From a virus: DNA of 21,889 bases. Position 1 is the first letter of the stretch. Each line of letters opens with the position of its first letter. The position numbers were made by a program, and so were the translations under genes. Location of the stretch: positions 1 through 21,889 of IMG/VR virus record IMGVR_UViG_3300009034_000229; one strand, given 5' to 3'. The notes below the pieces were generated by a model, which was not told the DNA's origin, did no database searches, and worked only from the letters and a program-made list of their open reading frames with translations. Shown here one piece after another: positions 5,451 to 15,162 of the stretch.

Positions 5451-5724
5451 CTTTTTCGATGCCACTGTCGGTCGAATGATAAAATCTCGAAAGGCCCGTG
5501 TCACTCTCAAACCCGAGGCTCGGGCTGCCGTCAAAGAAAAATTAGGCTGCACAGATGAGGAACTAGACGAGGCCCTGAAGAAGATGGGCGAGCAGATGAC
5601 CGAGCAAGCTCATAAGGATATGGATTATCTCCATAAACGAGGACAAGCGAAACAAATCGCAGACCTGGGTGCTTTGATTGCTATGCGAAAGAAGGAGAAA
5701 GCCAATGACCCAAATGCAAAGTAG
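5443..5724 (+). CDS. hypothetical charged helical protein
   Basis: A 93-residue protein starting MGDFFDATVGRM. I chose the ATG at 5443 because AAGGGG lies upstream and the start overlaps the stop of the previous gene by eight bases. The same frame is open much further upstream, but there it lies within the primase gene. The sequence is highly charged and helical (KEKLGCTDEELDEALKKM) and could form coiled coils. No family recognised. It overlaps the start of the next gene by 20 bases. Confidence 0.6.
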   Translation: MGDFFDATVGRMIKSRKARVTLKPEARAAVKEKLGCTDEELDEALKKMGEQMTEQAHKDMDYLHKRGQAKQIADLGALIAMRKKEKANDPNAK

Positions 5725-6829
5725 CGGAGAGGAACGTACTTTCGAGAGCGGTGCCGTCCGTGATGGTGGGAAGAAACCCATGCTTCAACTAATCTCCCCA
5801 CATGCTCACATGCGGCTTGGTGAATGGCTTCGATTTGCCTGCCAGGATCGACAGCCAAAACCATACCCTCCAAGAAATTGGGAAAAGGGGATGCCCTTCA
5901 GTGAAACAATCGGGGCATTGGAGCGGCATATTCAAAAGCTCAAATTAGGTATGCGGGATGAGGATCACGTTGCGGCCATGCTATTCGGTGCTATGGTACT
6001 TGCTCATCAACAAGAAGAAATCAAAGCCGGCCGCATGGACCCGGCTCTCGACGACATGCCGCATTACGAGGATCAACCTCGACCGTGGCCACGTATACTG
6101 CCTCCGGCCAACAAGCCTGGGCCTCCGATTACAGAACGTATGTGCCCTAAATGTGATGCCCATCTCAGACAAGAACAGTACGAAACTGGTTTGGAGTTCT
6201 TCTGCGTTTATTGCGAGTGGAATTCTCTCGATCCTGAGCCGTATCACGGCGATGAGCCAGATAATTGGCGAAATGCAGACCCCACAGATCAAGAATACAT
6301 GGAGTATGCCAGAAATTTATTCGACGCCATGAAGTTCTTAGCTCCCGACCACGTTAAACTAGATGTGTTGAGGGCAGCGTGTGATTGCCCTGATTGTCCG
6401 GTTCATCGGTCTATAGTTATTGAGCCTGCTACCTTCTACGTCTGCGGCCCGATGCGGGGTCTTCCATTCCTCAACTTCCCGGCCTTCGATGGGGCAAGGA
6501 AATTCGGCGAATCTCTTGGGTACAACATCATCAGCCCAGCAGACATGGACCGGATGTACGGAATCGATCCGATTAAAGACCCGGCCTCTCCGAAACGAAT
6601 CCGTGACGCGACTCCCGATTTCGTAAAAAGCGTGGTGCGACGAGACGTAGAAATAATTCTTCGTCTCAATAAAGAACGGGGTGATGGCCTCGCCCTTCTT
6701 CCTGGTTGGCAAAAGAGTGTTGGTGGGATGGCAGAGGTTCGATTGGCCTACTGGCTCGGTCTCAAGTTTGTCGATGCCCGCGATTGGGCACCAATTGATA
6801 TGGATGCTGAATTGGAGATGCAAGTATGA
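5705..6829 (+). CDS. fusion: dATP/dGTP diphosphohydrolase-like domain + zinc ribbon + DUF4406
   Basis: A 374-residue three-part protein. Residues about 11-120 match the dATP/dGTP diphosphohydrolase N-terminal family (DUF5664, related to phage MazZ): RDGGKKP at 19-25, N58-W59-E-K-G, E73-R-H75, and D85-E-D-H88, the acidic and histidine positions expected for a MazG-like all-alpha pyrophosphohydrolase. Residues 147-170 are a CPKC...CVYC zinc ribbon, with a further C226-x-C228-x2-C231 cluster. Residues about 244-360 match DUF4406, a nucleoside 2-deoxyribosyltransferase-like fold: YVCGPMRG at 245-252, D314 in RRDVEIIL, and a GGMAEVRLAYWLG helix. The parts suggest hydrolysis of a dNTP followed by base exchange or handling of the product; this order is my inference. 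ATG 5705 has AAGGAG upstream; an earlier in-frame start at 5678 lies within the preceding gene. Confidence 0.8.
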   Translation: MTQMQSSGEERTFESGAVRDGGKKPMLQLISPHAHMRLGEWLRFACQDRQPKPYPPRNWEKGMPFSETIGALERHIQKLKLGMRDEDHVAAMLFGAMVLAHQQEEIKAGRMDPALDDMPHYEDQPRPWPRILPPANKPGPPITERMCPKCDAHLRQEQYETGLEFFCVYCEWNSLDPEPYHGDEPDNWRNADPTDQEYMEYARNLFDAMKFLAPDHVKLDVLRAACDCPDCPVHRSIVIEPATFYVCGPMRGLPFLNFPAFDGARKFGESLGYNIISPADMDRMYGIDPIKDPASPKRIRDATPDFVKSVVRRDVEIILRLNKERGDGLALLPGWQKSVGGMAEVRLAYWLGLKFVDARDWAPIDMDAELEMQV

Positions 6830-7551
6830 CTGCCGCCCACACACATAAACGCTTCTTCATAGGTTTCGACCGCCATACTCCCGAACACGATCCGGTAGTG
6901 GATGAAATCGCCCTGGCCTTTATTCACGATTTCAAGCCACACATTCGAGTAGCCGGTGGAGATTGGCAGACAGTCGATCAGATATCGAAGTTCAAGAATG
7001 ATTCAAAAACTGCATTAAAGGCTGATTTCCAGGCTAATGAAGCGGCCTTGGCAGCCTACGGAATCACTCACTACCTCGAAGGAAATCACGAGGAACGACT
7101 TCGGCGAGTGGGATTGGTGGAAGAAAATGTCCGTTCGATGTACGATCTGAAAGAGCATTTGCACCTAGTCAAGCAGCGAATCAAGCTGCTTCCCTACCAT
7201 CCGGAAAAGGGCGTTCTCAAGATCGGGGAACTCAAGATTCTCCACGGTTTCTTTGCGAATGAATATATGGCGAAGAAAACGGCAATGATATACGGTACGT
7301 GTGTGTTCGGTCACGCTCATAGATTTCAGACATTTCAATCTAAGCAGGCGTTCTACGACCGAGTGGGATTTGCGATTGGAATGCTCGGTCAAGTTCGTCC
7401 AAGCTGGGTTGAGCATCGAGCCCCGTTAGGGTGGGCTCAAGGATTTGCATTTGGCTACTTGCATAGGAATGGCCACTTTGATCTTTATCCTGTCCGGATC
7501 ATTGACGGCCGAGTGACAATCAACGGGCGGGTGTATACGGGAGGTAAATGA
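6826..7551 (+). CDS. calcineurin-like metallophosphoesterase
   Basis: A 241-residue protein with the full metallophosphoesterase signature in order: D15-R-H17, G45-D46, G86-N-H88-E89, H140 and G162-H163-A-H165. These residues hold two metal ions and hydrolyse phosphomonoesters or diesters. Some phage relatives act on DNA, others on nucleotides. The substrate cannot be told from the sequence. It begins at an ATGA overlap with the nucleotide-enzyme fusion and ends in a TGATG overlap with a MazG-like gene, so a role in the same nucleotide pathway is plausible. No signal peptide, so it should act in the cytoplasm. Confidence 0.85.
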   Translation: MTAAHTHKRFFIGFDRHTPEHDPVVDEIALAFIHDFKPHIRVAGGDWQTVDQISKFKNDSKTALKADFQANEAALAAYGITHYLEGNHEERLRRVGLVEENVRSMYDLKEHLHLVKQRIKLLPYHPEKGVLKIGELKILHGFFANEYMAKKTAMIYGTCVFGHAHRFQTFQSKQAFYDRVGFAIGMLGQVRPSWVEHRAPLGWAQGFAFGYLHRNGHFDLYPVRIIDGRVTINGRVYTGGK

Positions 7552-10269: not shown

Positions 10270-13200
10270 TTATCGCTGCTTTCTGCGTCTTACCCCTCGT
10301 TTACGAAGTTTTGTAGGTTTCTTTTCCCGGGTTGCACTTACCATGAATCCCAGACTTTTCGCCCAACCATCCCACCCATCGATATAACCTAATTGCCAAT
10401 CAATCATTGATTGCATTTGAATCGGTGTCGCTTGTTTTGCCTGCCAAAGAAGAAACGACGGTGTTTGCTCCCATTCAAGCGGGCCTCCACCAAACGCCTC
10501 CCATTTAACTACCTCGCCCTTACGGAATAGATCACCAATGGAAGTAAACTTCCGACCCCGCCAGTCTTCTCCGGTTATGGCATCCAAAGCCATACGAGTG
10601 AGAACACTTCCCTTCCCCTTTGCAGCCCGCCAAGGGTCCACAGTAAACTTTGCCGGATCACGGAAATGCCCGAGGAAATTAAAATATTTACGTTTCCCAT
10701 CTTCACCCCCAAGTCCACGATAAATGGGTGTTACATCAATATCCATCCACTTGAGATTCCCGGCCTTCCATGCTTTCTGATATCGGGACCAGAAAGTTTC
10801 GTCATCCCATGCTGAGAGTAGAAGGTTAGAGAGAATAATGATTCCAACCCCCTTCAGAGCAATTCGACCCCACATGGCTCGATGGACTTTTCCCATCTCT
10901 CCCTTTGCAAATGCAGCCGTCATGGAACGGATATTGGATTCTGTCCAGTCTGGTGCCAAAGCAAGCAATTGAAATATATGTTGTGCGGTTGGATTCCGGC
11001 CTCGCCGTCGTAGATTTAATCCACCGAAGTCATGATTCATTTCCCTGGCAACTGCATGTGCAATTTCCCGATGAGAAATTCTGCCATCTGCAAGTTTAGA
11101 CTCATTAGCTTTCACACGGGCTCGATAGTCCAAAAGGGCTGCTTGGACTTTTAAATACGGTCCAAGTTTATGGAACAAAAAATCAAGCTGATGGTCCCGC
11201 CATCTTAGGAGAGTGTCCTTTACGGCCCCGACCATTGGAACTTTATCTATAGCTTTTCCGATTAATGTTTGTTGTTCGGCATAAGATCGTTGATAGTCCT
11301 GTTCCCGACCTACTGTCATTCCCTCGTGGATCAACAATGTTAATTCCGGATCAAAGTTCTCTATTGCTGCCTTACCTGCGTAATATGCAGATCGAGGATT
11401 GATACCCCGAGAAGCAAGCATAAAGGATCGAAGATATGCTTGATGATGAAAAGCACTAAAGAATAGAATTTGTTGCTTAATAATGGCATTATACTTGGAA
11501 AGCGTTCCAACTCCAGGAAGTTCACGAATTGCCGAAGACCCCAAAGCATTGTTGAGATATGTAGCGAGCTTTTTCTCGGCATATATGGGGACTCGATGAA
11601 ATAGATTCCCATCCGGATCAATGAATACACCCGCCCCATAAGCTTTACCTTCTTCAGCTTTCCCAGCCCAAGTCCACTTTTGAAAGTTAGGGTTCTTGAC
11701 CAGCTTCCATCCACGTCCAGGACTTGTCGTGGCAAACAGCCCGCCTTTTATGCCGAGTTCCAGAAGATTGCGATCAATAATCACTTGAGCGATTTGTCGT
11801 CGAGCGACTTCTTGGGCCTCGATTACCCCTGTGACTTCCAGTTCAAGGCCCATCTCCCAACCTGCAAGGATCGAACCAAGGGTTCGTTGTCGCTGTCGTC
11901 CGGTCATGGTTGCAAATTTCGCTTGTAATGCTTTTCCCTTTTTCCCGGCCCACTTCCATATACGGGCAGCATAGTTTTCATGGAAGTTATTGATAATTTC
12001 ATTGTCTTTGGCAAACTGACTCAATACCTGATTTTCTTGGATAGTTCGCTCAACGAATTCAATCTGCTCCGGAGACATCTCAGCCACACGCTTAATCTGA
12101 GCTTGCTTATCGGCCGGCATCGCGGCTATTCGAGCATTAGACCAATCGACTGGATTATTCTTCATATCGATATAGAGAAGCATCGCATCATTTACTTGGG
12201 CAAGTGTCTCGCCTTTCCGAACCAAAGCTTTCAAAGCTTCCCGTTTCTTCTCAGCTAAAACTGCCGCTGTATGATCGGCTACATCACGGTCCCCAGCCCA
12301 TTTGTCTGTGAGAGCGTATGGAGAATCCTGTCCCGGTTCCCGAATATCAGGGAGGTCTTCGACATCAGGGATCGATTCTAAGAGATCGGGCGGTAACATT
12401 GCTTCAGATTCACGAGCCTTGTTTGTATCGCTTCGACGAGCAACTTCCATTGAAACGTCAGGGGGCACACCTTCTTGCAATATAGGCGGTACATCAAGCA
12501 AAGTGCGACCGATTTCGTAAAACTCATTTGCCGCAGCCTGATGAACGGCCGGGTCCTTCATCAACGAGTTCTCAACCTGGGCCTCGCTCAAGTCTCCCTC
12601 CGAGACCACTGTAACAGCATCAGCAAGTTCAGTTCCCTTGTATAGAGCAAGATTGTAAATATTCAAATGGGAGATTACGTCGGCGTTTCGTTGAATAAAA
12701 TCAAACGACCGAGCATAGGTTTCAGCCGTCTCCCCTGGAAGACCGACGATAAAGTTAGCGACCAAGCTGATATCAGCCTCGCGGAGCTTCGCCACGGCAT
12801 CATCAATTAGCTTCTCATTCGCCGGCTTCTTCATCTGTTTGAGGATCGGATCGTTGTAGGACTCGATCCCGAGTTCCACATACCTGATACCAGCTTCCTT
12901 GAGGAACTCCGGAGTGAATTTCTGCATCTGAGCCGCTGTCGTCTGAACTACAAAACCCTGGAAGTCGGGATTACGTTCCTTTACCCGTTTAAACACCTCA
13001 GTCAAATATGTATGATTTTCAGCTTGGCCGAATGTCTTATCGTCCAGATAGACTAACTCAGCATCAAGATCGACAATCGCATCGACTTGTTGATCGATAG
13101 TTTCTTGGGAAGTTTCTTCCAGTGTGCCAGGAACCGTGCAAAATGCACATTTATGAGTGCAACCCTTCGACATAGTGAGCCGGGGCATTGCTCGCGTACC

Positions 13201-15162
13201 AGCGAAGTGTCGATAATTGTAACCTTCCGCAGTTTCTTGCCCTTCGACCTCAGCCCAATCCTCGATAGAATCATATTGCTCTACATGCTCTGCAACAATA
13301 TCACTTATATCTGCATATCCACCCAGAATAGTTCGACCTTTATAACGTTCTGTGAAATCTTGCACAAGTGGTTTATTAGCATCAAGAACACTGAATGCTA
13401 TCTGCCCATACCCAGCTTGATTGGCAAATTCTACTGCTTCATCTTGATTCCGAACGATATATACATCAGCATTCGGAAACGCATGAGCCGCCCGTACTAT
13501 CCACTGCGGAACTTCCCAGAAATCATCAGGACGTTCATAACCCTGTCGAGTCTCGTAGAGTTTGTCATGATAAGCATCGGCGTTAGAACTTTCTTCTCCG
13601 ACAGGAGCGAGTCCAGCTTCCTTCCTTACTTCGGCTTGAGCGGCAACAACTTCAGCTTCAAGAGCAACTTCTTTTGCAGGAGCAACCTCCGCTCTAGCGG
13701 GCTGTGCTCGTTGGACCAGGGGTGATGCAAACTGCACGAGCAGAACCCGATCTGCATTGTCGGCGGCTGATGTTTGCCGTACATGGATATTCTCATATCC
13801 AAGCGGCATTGCTGTGCCCTCCCGATGAACGGCCGCCCCTCGGGCATAGGAGTCTTGAGGACCCGTTACGGCAGACCCCGGACTCTTAACAGCAAAATCA
13901 AGATTCTGCCGAGGAAGTTCCGCCGTGGTGGGCTGCCGGCGAGGCATTCCAGCTTCCGGCCCTATAGGAACATTAGGGATAGGATTGCCGTCATCGTCTA
14001 CGAACACAGCCCCTTCTCCCGGTCGCTGAGGACCGAGACGATTCGATATAGACTGAGCCGAAGCAAAGGCCCCACCAAGTAAAAGGACCTGGGCTGCTCC
14101 CATTTGTCCGGCTGCATGAGCCCGACTCAGGAATTCACTTTGATCTATCTCCGGCGTAATCCCCAGAACTTTATTCGTGGCATCTTGGCCAATCTGGGCA
14201 AGGAATTCCTCGACATATCCTTGTGGGACATCGGCAAGCACACGTCCGAGAGCCTTCTTAGAGAACTTTTCCAACCATATTCGGGCTCCCCGCCATCCAT
14301 CTTTCGCCAGCACACGTCGAAGACCAGGAGCATTACGTAGTAGACCACTTGCCAAGTGAGACGCTGCCGCCCACCCAAACATTTCAGTAGCAGTTTCGAT
14401 CAGGCCATTACTAACCGCAGCCGTCCACTCATTAAGCATTCCAATATCTTGACCTTCAAGCCGTCGCTGGGCAACCTCACCAAAAGTCTGCCCGGCTGCT
14501 GAAACTCCGAACATACCAGCAATCGGAGCAGCCTTCGCCAGCCGTTGAGCCCAAGTTAAACCCGAGCCGGCACCTCCGACACCCCCCAACAAAGAGAACA
14601 TTGTAGTACCGACGATTTGTCCCAAAGCCCCACTCGCCCCTCCGGTTGGAGCGAGGATTCGATTCGTCTCGTTTAAATGCTTCTGCCACTTTCCGATTGC
14701 ATCATCAGAAATCTGAATCGTATCCGCAACTTTCGCCCCGGTAGCCACGATCCCACCGATACTCTGAAGGAAAGTATTCGCTATATTATTCTGGAAATTA
14801 TGCCACGCACTTGCTTTCGACCGCCGGGCTCGCATCTCATAAAAACGATCTTTGGGGATCGCCCCTTCTCGTGTAAGATAAAATGCTTCCGGTTGTTCAC
14901 CGACCATCTGACGGTAGGCGTCCTGAATTGCTACCTGCTCATTGGCAGTGAGTCGCTGGGCTCCCCGTGCATCTCGCTCAGTTTGATACTGCTGTATGCG
15001 AGCCGATGCCTGCCGCATGAAATTATCGGGCGTCACATTTCGCAGGTCGATGGGCTCGGTTCGCTGCTGAAGCATATCCTGTGCTGACCATACTTGCGGA
15101 AGGTCAGGCTTCATTGGTTTCGCTGGTTTCTGAAACTCTGCCGGTGTCCAGGTCTGGGGCAT
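10270..15162 (-). CDS. 1630-residue polyvalent virion protein with embedded radical SAM domain
   Basis: The largest gene. Residues 1 to about 530 look like an internal virion protein: helical, with hydrophobic glycine/alanine-rich segments at about 167-210 and 348-370, then an A/E-rich linker. Residues about 552-616 form a Rossmann-like segment ending in ILGGY, as in the B12-binding part of some radical SAM proteins but without the cobalamin DxHxxG motif. A radical SAM core follows: C668-T-H-K-C672-A-F-C675, G765-I-E-S768 and N803-F-I-V-G-L-P-G-E-T812. Residues about 1000-1630 are helical, with a membrane-like segment at about 1438-1454 and a very basic tail; they resemble the C-terminal part of large phage polyvalent proteins. 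The start overlaps the previous stop (TAATG). Packaging in the virion and ejection into the host are inferred from context and domain style. Confidence 0.75.
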   Translation of the reverse strand: MPQTWTPAEFQKPAKPMKPDLPQVWSAQDMLQQRTEPIDLRNVTPDNFMRQASARIQQYQTERDARGAQRLTANEQVAIQDAYRQMVGEQPEAFYLTREGAIPKDRFYEMRARRSKASAWHNFQNNIANTFLQSIGGIVATGAKVADTIQISDDAIGKWQKHLNETNRILAPTGGASGALGQIVGTTMFSLLGGVGGAGSGLTWAQRLAKAAPIAGMFGVSAAGQTFGEVAQRRLEGQDIGMLNEWTAAVSNGLIETATEMFGWAAASHLASGLLRNAPGLRRVLAKDGWRGARIWLEKFSKKALGRVLADVPQGYVEEFLAQIGQDATNKVLGITPEIDQSEFLSRAHAAGQMGAAQVLLLGGAFASAQSISNRLGPQRPGEGAVFVDDDGNPIPNVPIGPEAGMPRRQPTTAELPRQNLDFAVKSPGSAVTGPQDSYARGAAVHREGTAMPLGYENIHVRQTSAADNADRVLLVQFASPLVQRAQPARAEVAPAKEVALEAEVVAAQAEVRKEAGLAPVGEESSNADAYHDKLYETRQGYERPDDFWEVPQWIVRAAHAFPNADVYIVRNQDEAVEFANQAGYGQIAFSVLDANKPLVQDFTERYKGRTILGGYADISDIVAEHVEQYDSIEDWAEVEGQETAEGYNYRHFAGTRAMPRLTMSKGCTHKCAFCTVPGTLEETSQETIDQQVDAIVDLDAELVYLDDKTFGQAENHTYLTEVFKRVKERNPDFQGFVVQTTAAQMQKFTPEFLKEAGIRYVELGIESYNDPILKQMKKPANEKLIDDAVAKLREADISLVANFIVGLPGETAETYARSFDFIQRNADVISHLNIYNLALYKGTELADAVTVVSEGDLSEAQVENSLMKDPAVHQAAANEFYEIGRTLLDVPPILQEGVPPDVSMEVARRSDTNKARESEAMLPPDLLESIPDVEDLPDIREPGQDSPYALTDKWAGDRDVADHTAAVLAEKKREALKALVRKGETLAQVNDAMLLYIDMKNNPVDWSNARIAAMPADKQAQIKRVAEMSPEQIEFVERTIQENQVLSQFAKDNEIINNFHENYAARIWKWAGKKGKALQAKFATMTGRQRQRTLGSILAGWEMGLELEVTGVIEAQEVARRQIAQVIIDRNLLELGIKGGLFATTSPGRGWKLVKNPNFQKWTWAGKAEEGKAYGAGVFIDPDGNLFHRVPIYAEKKLATYLNNALGSSAIRELPGVGTLSKYNAIIKQQILFFSAFHHQAYLRSFMLASRGINPRSAYYAGKAAIENFDPELTLLIHEGMTVGREQDYQRSYAEQQTLIGKAIDKVPMVGAVKDTLLRWRDHQLDFLFHKLGPYLKVQAALLDYRARVKANESKLADGRISHREIAHAVAREMNHDFGGLNLRRRGRNPTAQHIFQLLALAPDWTESNIRSMTAAFAKGEMGKVHRAMWGRIALKGVGIIILSNLLLSAWDDETFWSRYQKAWKAGNLKWMDIDVTPIYRGLGGEDGKRKYFNFLGHFRDPAKFTVDPWRAAKGKGSVLTRMALDAITGEDWRGRKFTSIGDLFRKGEVVKWEAFGGGPLEWEQTPSFLLWQAKQATPIQMQSMIDWQLGYIDGWDGWAKSLGFMVSATREKKPTKLRKRGVRRRKQR
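12583..13185 (-). other. radical SAM core domain (about residues 660-860 of the 1630-residue protein)
   Basis: The CxxxCxxC cluster-binding motif is encoded at 13138-13161. The C-terminal side keeps the E-L-G-I-E-S (strand 4-type SAM-binding) and glycine-rich NFIVGLPGET motifs in the right order and spacing. Radical SAM enzymes use a 4Fe-4S cluster to cut S-adenosylmethionine and start radical chemistry such as methylthiolation, methylation or rearrangement. All key residues appear intact, so activity is plausible. The substrate is unknown. Confidence 0.85.

Follow-up and report, generated by a model that had tools for sequence, protein, structure and literature searches.

The window, by which we mean the whole 21,889-nucleotide stretch analyzed here, carries a gene for a 374-residue protein that joins a DUF5664 domain to a DUF4406 domain. 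On balance, we read this protein as a two-step deoxynucleotide-dismantling enzyme that would serve to shape or clean the dNTP pool. In the first step, as predicted from the family, DUF5664 would hydrolyze a purine dNTP (or dUTP) to dNMP and pyrophosphate. In the second, suggested by fold, catalytic triad and fusion partner, DUF4406 would cleave the N-glycosidic bond of the dNMP by way of a deoxyribosyl intermediate linked to Glu344, giving base and deoxyribose-5-phosphate. With the two steps joined, cellular kinases could not recharge the dNMP, and removal of the dNTP would thus be irreversible. The purpose is the least certain element, and would concern phages in which no 2-aminoadenine pathway was detected.

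Architecture and setting of the fusion gene

The gene is a single open frame without breaks from ATG 5705 to TGA 6829 (Table 1), and the AAGGAG that precedes it is probably its ribosome-binding site. Pfam matches PF18909 (dGTP_diPhyd_N, formerly DUF5664) with 43.4 bits against a cut-off of 27 (E 3.6e-11; E 7.7e-14 in a second annotation). PF14359 is matched as two stretches, the better of which spans residues 244-282 (32.6 bits against a cut-off of 22, E 1.1e-7). PHROGs concur, assigning phrog_801 (dATP/dGTP pyrophosphohydrolase) and phrog_355 (nucleoside 2-deoxyribosyltransferase). Pfam does not find PF04447 (DUF550) in the protein, unlike in MazZ of the SH-Ab 15497 type; NCBIfam returns no family at E ≤ 0.1, and a PDB sequence search with the protein gives zero matches at E ≤ 10.

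Table 1. Positions in the window of the fusion gene, its parts and the gene that follows.
Feature	Positions	Strand	Basis
CDS, 374 aa, DUF5664 (PF18909)–zinc ribbon linker–DUF4406 (PF14359)	5705..6829	+	Pfam, PHROGs
AAGGAG, Shine-Dalgarno-like, 7 nt before ATG 5705	5692..5697	+	Direct sequence reading
DUF5664 / dATP-dGTP diphosphohydrolase domain, residues 19-105, all-helical model	5759..6019	+	PF18909, AlphaFold
Zinc-ribbon-like CxxC...CxxC, residues 147-170	6143..6214	+	CxxC positions, model strands
Third CxxC, residues 228-231, shortly upstream of C domain	6386..6397	+	Sequence
DUF4406 domain, residues about 241-361, NDT/DNPH1-type fold	6425..6787	+	PF14359, model comparison
Tyr245, predicted catalytic triad	6437..6439	+	45/45 C-domain sequences
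Asp314, predicted catalytic triad	6644..6646	+	42/45 C-domain sequences, 16/16 fusions
Glu344, predicted nucleophile	6734..6736	+	45/45 C-domain sequences
Next gene, 241-aa metallo-phosphoesterase; ATG overlaps fusion stop by 4 nt	6826..7551	+	phrog_221, E 8.6e-9

An AlphaFold model resolves two confident domains, with pLDDT values of 96-98 in 10-residue blocks from about residue 31 to 120 and of 86-98 from about 241 to 360; the N domain modeled alone reaches a mean pLDDT of 91.8. Within the low-confidence linker between them, the model places two beta strands (153-159 and 162-167), and CxxC pairs start at residues 147 and 167 (CxxC-16-CxxC; positions converted to the 374-residue numbering from a 383-residue frame). 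A preliminary description of this DNA had proposed a MazZ/DUF5664-like domain tied by a zinc ribbon to a DUF4406 domain, and Pfam, PHROGs and the CxxC motifs bear out both families and the ribbon. The limits it gave were right for the C domain (240-374) and slightly too wide for the N domain (1-125).

Linkers and neighboring genes were compared across 19 entries, namely 17 distinct fusions plus the duplicates L113 and L158, with the fusions of phage Jojan60 and Arthrobacter liuii outside this set. A zinc ribbon is present in two of the 19, the second CxxC pair recurring only in L025, and the linker of L004 holds one CxxC alone. The ribbon is thus dispensable and not a general feature of these proteins. 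A related phosphoesterase lies at most 432 nt downstream in 13 of the 19 entries, six of these 13 being seeds of the profile used. A pathway product such as deoxyribose-5-phosphate might be the substrate of the phosphoesterase in the window, although this is only an idea.

The source record, of about 21.9 kb and classed as linear in IMG/VR, is probably a fragment, and two of its other genes deserve mention. A GroES/Cpn10 homologue (1070-1552, + strand; PF00166, 56 bits) is located between a Sak4-like recombinase and replication genes, and reading of L004 and L025 reveals similar short genes in the same place. Among structural-type genes, a 1630-residue protein (10270-15162, − strand) contains a Radical_SAM match at residues 664-823 (E 2.2e-17) with CTHKCAFC at residue 668, and a radical-SAM enzyme within a virion-size protein is unusual. 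Its counterpart in L004 (1578 aa) aligns with residues 44-372 of the window protein only and is without the CTHKCAFC motif.

Recurrence of the domain pairing

Relatives came from four scans of viral contigs, three of them using the protein or alignments built on it and the fourth using the N domain, and were read with local profiles; one scan of genome contigs contributed the A. liuii fusion. Because these related-locus scans hold the best 80 loci only, the counts below are not population frequencies. Fusions with identical last 100 residues were treated as duplicates (L113 of L110; L158 of L156; L024, L027 and L107 of L004; L108 of L025; L109 of L090; L112 of L063).

The meeting of both domains in one protein, for which the preliminary description had proposed a survey, does recur: there are 19 distinct fusions. 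Thirteen have the order seen in the window (the window itself, L004, L025, L063, L090, L110, L114, L116, L117, L118, L149, L151 and L156), and six are reversed (L164, L148, L165, L141, Jojan60 as L170 and A. liuii as L179). Both Pfam families score above cut-off in 14 of the 19; four (L110, L117, L156 and L179) are identified by phrog_801 and phrog_355 alone, and L141 has a DUF5664 match below cut-off (22.0 against 27 bits). Counterparts of the window fusion in other contigs share 41-44% identity, and the protein is therefore not an artefact of assembly or frame. When the whole protein was compared by tblastn with 50,697 phage records, 359 matched and none across more than 80% of the query, so there is no close cultured relative.

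Partners of DUF5664 vary. L028 pairs it with another NDT-type domain (PF05014, 28.2 bits, just below the cut-off of 28.8), and L128 with a weak NDT-type match (phrog_355, E 9e-4), a longer piece of which hits no family at E ≤ 0.001. A protein of Cellulophaga phage Calle_1 (L169, 1273-2202), in which DUF5664 (102 bits) precedes a weak NT5C match (18.9 bits, cut-off 24.8), is perhaps another DUF5664 fusion, to a dNMP-consuming enzyme.

Cultured phages carry the same combination in other forms. Stenotrophomonas virus Jojan60 encodes a protein (UPU15984.1, labeled "purine trans deoxyribosylase") with both Pfam families above cut-off. In the mycobacteriophages, genes 56 and 57 of Aminay adjoin with a 4-nt overlap, genes 88 and 89 of Cosmo are neighbors, and Bobby has the order DUF4406-MazG-DUF5664, with MazG in between. 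A DUF550 gene of Pseudomonas phage AUS531phi (PF04447 by Pfam) overlaps a gene that its record labels DUF4406. In Boilgate, neighboring genes 50 and 51, which overlap by 4 nt, both lie within the matched region. Across these phages, DUF4406 thus accompanies dNTP pyrophosphohydrolases of three kinds. Mycolicibacterium phage HMC1 was dropped, as its record is unverified and no single frame covers both domains.

Several database labels in these families appear to be wrong. The phrog_2252 label "endolysin; inhibits RNA polymerase" on DUF5664 domains, as in Aquamicrobium phage P14, is likely an annotation error that has spread. DUF4406-type genes are labeled "deoxycytidylate deaminase" in Microbacterium phage Percival (gene 30; L002 3007-3426) and "MazG-like pyrophosphatase" in Adumb2043 (gene 27; L003 2058-2423), in both cases probably incorrectly.

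How tightly the two domains are associated depends on which is taken as the anchor. Around 26 loci found through DUF4406 only (scan rows whose matched query residues start at 143 or later), a local profile detects DUF5664 fused in four, overlapping in four and without a match in 18. Pfam added the L149 fusion, bringing the count to 9 of 26, so that every DUF5664 match near these loci is fused or overlapping. Conversely, the best 80 N-domain loci have an NDT-type domain fused in four cases, adjacent in seven and neither in 69, and DUF5664 thus often stands alone. The 11 partners among these 80 were not counted blind, since the L005/L128-, L028- and L055-type profiles were built after the loci had been viewed.

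A tree of 101 N domains, built from few columns and showing changes rather than their directions, requires at least eight changes between the fused and separate states, five of them forced by well-supported branches. Together with the occurrence of both domain orders, this indicates that the pairing has been made or lost repeatedly; a fused ancestor followed by losses only may be one such history. The closest unfused relative, L111, has an N domain 65% identical to that of the window and shares the gene order (primase, DUF5664, phosphoesterase, lipoprotein-like gene), but it lacks DUF4406; the coupling is therefore dispensable. This absence, like the poor conservation of the linker and zinc ribbon, is what might be expected of a neutral fusion of adjacent genes or of a catalytically dead domain. 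Such an origin nonetheless appears quite improbable to us, given that all 16 fusions aligned retain the triad and that DUF5664 has been paired again and again, in either order and with several NDT-type partners.

Predicted activities of the two domains

In the N domain (residue numbers are alignment numbers +4), Y54, N58, W59, R74, H75 and H88 are invariant in all 60 sequences compared, and E86 and D87 are kept in at least 90%. The domain belongs to an "EDH" subtype, in which a short motif replaces the acidic loop of the Wayne and MazZ proteins, and it is without their GE-x-D-x-E-x-G segment. Comparison with solved MazG enzymes yields weak similarity, the best Foldseek match being MazZ of S-2L (7ody; E 0.6, Z 4.1), and an N-domain profile finds nothing in the PDB at E ≤ 5. 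Because the subtype differs and the resemblance to the MazG fold is weak, activity can be assigned at the level of the family, from which the N domain would be expected to hydrolyze dNTP to dNMP. The DUF5664 protein of Arthrobacter phage Wayne converts dATP, dGTP and dUTP to dNMPs by itself, with the highest kcat on dATP (PMC12884076).

The activity of the Wayne protein on dUTP would suit a house-cleaning enzyme directed at dUTP or at damaged and non-canonical dNTPs (dITP, 8-oxo-dGTP, 5hmdUTP), with DUF4406 as a DNPH1-like sanitizer, but its preference for dATP speaks against this. A PF00692 dUTPase is found in none of 23 records searched, and DNPH1 structures with hmdUMP occur among the fold matches of the C domain, both of which fit such a role. 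Many phages are without a dUTPase anyway. Taken together, we regard house-cleaning as unlikely, if still worth weighing.

The C domain (model residues 240-363) aligns best by VIA-align with 1t1j (Z 11.8), followed by NDTs (about 8-9), DNPH1 (8.4) and MilB (8.3); the NDT, DNPH1 and MilB alignments span about 95-111 residues, and TIR domains score lower. The best Foldseek E is 5.5e-3, at a probability of 1.00; searched with the full model, the PDB yields nothing at E ≤ 0.001. Sequence comparisons with the PDB give marginal NDT-type matches to a C-domain profile (best E 0.016) and, in a second search, 1t1j as the best NDT-type match at E 0.9, below two D-Ala ligase matches. The TIR matches could be taken to mean that the C domain acts on NAD or on defense nucleotides, as a counter-defense enzyme or NAD-type glycohydrolase to which the N domain is accessory, and papers on retrons contain the term nucleoside deoxyribosyltransferase. 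We find this exceedingly improbable: the TIR matches rank below the best NDT and DNPH1 matches, the partners are dNTP pyrophosphohydrolases, and PADLOC finds nothing for the fusion protein at E ≤ 1. An N-glycosidase in a paper on phage DLP4 is YbiA, which we took as unrelated (PMC6469090).

In a HMMER alignment with a deoxyribosyltransferase of E. faecalis (7m5h), Y245, D314 and E344 coincide with the Tyr, Asp and Glu of that enzyme. The preliminary description had staked its reading on catalytic residues being present, and the triad is intact in every fused row (Table 1; the 16 rows leave out L149, L170 and L179, and C-domain rows were taken at a local E ≤ 1e-10). Ser338, six residues before the glutamate, is found in 15 of the 16 fusions, and 7m5h has Asp there; Arg251, six residues after the tyrosine, is found in 14, and Asp12 of the enzyme DmtZ (adenine recognition) is not kept at this position. 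These two residues resemble those of the dNMP hydrolase DNPH1, for which Rcl numbering gives R19, S87, G89 and E93. Arginine is common at the Tyr+6 position in hydrolases (PMC12884076). Ser338 and Arg251 would thus favor a 5′-monophosphate substrate and hydrolysis, and Pro278, present in all 45 C-domain sequences, leaves transfer possible.

If DUF4406 were instead an ordinary NDT, the protein might salvage deoxynucleosides produced with the help of the neighboring metallo-phosphoesterase. The NDT fold matches score at least as high as those of DNPH1 and the phosphoesterase follows most entries, but the serine where 7m5h has Asp and the direct fusion to a dNMP-producing domain make this very improbable.

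Base exchange, in which DUF5664 would produce dNMP and DUF4406 would move its deoxyribose-5-phosphate to another base, for modified DNA or for salvage, has a precedent in DmtZ, which converts dAMP and the Z base to dZMP (PMC12884076). In an hhalign comparison of DUF4406 with DmtZ of Wayne and Ghobes that is not significant (probability 1.6%, E 0.032), the triad and Pro278 fall on the DmtZ triad and Pro57. Pro57 is described as transferase-like, but the P57A mutation abolished neither activity of DmtZ (PMC12884076).

The lack of matches to modified-base genes likewise argues against exchange. PurZ (PF00709) is found in none of 24 virus records, and both Z-DNA controls, Wayne and Ghobes, are positive; it is also found in none of seven cultured phages that carry either the fusion or the two genes as neighbors. 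The searches covered 26 and 8 records, with Wayne and Ghobes the only scorers, and the 24 include three records without the fusion (L111, L119, L146) and two with other NDT-type partners (L028, L128). The window's record is a 21.9-kb fragment and most of the others may be fragments, which can hide genes. Despite this, the PurZ results make a Z-DNA reading unlikely for the fusion-bearing group, and the link to 2-aminoadenine DNA drawn in the preliminary description is not supported. Thymidylate synthase and QueC are each found in 0 of 23 records; as a positive check on these searches, PolA is found in 14 of 23. Base exchange is therefore doubtful in our view, and the same description's coupling of dNTP breakdown to base exchange stands in part: repeated fusions and the triad argue for dNTP breakdown joined to glycosidic-bond chemistry, with hydrolysis the likelier form of the latter. 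More doubtful still is a single-polypeptide base-swapping machine, in phages without a known modified-base pathway, that transfers the deoxyribose-5-phosphate of dNMP to another base. If this were true, the widespread DUF4406 would include a new class of phosphodeoxyribosyltransferase, and a non-canonical nucleotide would be made for phage DNA or salvaged.

Implications and comparison with known systems

Hundreds of the searched phage records contain DUF4406, to which Pfam assigns no function. Searches of open-access PMC papers returned neither an activity for a DUF4406 protein nor a description of its fusion to DUF5664. The fusion to a family whose Wayne member is a proven dNTP pyrophosphohydrolase suggests a job for it, and repeated fusion in both orders predicts dNMP as its substrate class. 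Examples within reach of the laboratory are the M. smegmatis phages with neighboring pairs and Jojan60 with its fusion. Destruction of dNTPs to the free base was described in 2026 in 2-aminoadenine phages (PMC12884076). If the two-step reading is correct, this strategy extends well beyond those phages, and why a phage would irreversibly dismantle DNA precursors becomes a question.

Known proteins share parts of this design. Jojan60 UPU15984.1 unites the same two Pfam families, but in the order DUF4406 then DUF5664, with a DUF5664 of the GED...D..TG..H subtype and a longer N-terminal extension. DUF5664-1 of Wayne shares its Pfam family with the N domain, and its activity has been shown (PMC12884076); it differs in being encoded by a separate gene, in having a "GENLDPEMGTSH" segment where the window protein has "GMRDEDH", and in coming from a PurZ phage. 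MazZ of Acinetobacter phage SH-Ab 15497 (DUF5664-DUF550) also combines an N-terminal PF18909 with a second nucleotide enzyme, but its partner is PF04447, a second pyrophosphohydrolase, and the phage, which has Z-DNA, encodes an adenylosuccinate synthetase. DNPH1/Rcl, MilB and the nucleoside deoxyribosyltransferases share the fold and Tyr-Asp-Glu triad of the C domain; they are, however, single-domain enzymes whose sequence similarity to it is marginal.

The closest parallel in domain logic is the natural DmtZ-DutZ fusion of Wayne, which likewise unites a dNTP diphosphatase and an NDT-superfamily dNMP hydrolase/transferase in one polypeptide (PMC12884076). DmtZ, a member of the NDT family, releases adenine from dAMP; adenine is also the main product that the fusion makes from dATP, and dutZ is the fusion partner of 77 of 85 dmtZ genes (PMC12884076). 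The Y/N/E triad of DmtZ aligns with Y245/D314/E344 in the non-significant hhalign comparison above. DmtZ-DutZ differs in that its phosphatase half is of the dUTPase type rather than DUF5664, its NDT half is not detectably DUF4406 by sequence, and it occurs with PurZ0 in Z-DNA phages. Thus, the domain logic is already known from DmtZ-DutZ, and the DUF5664-DUF4406 composition is new.
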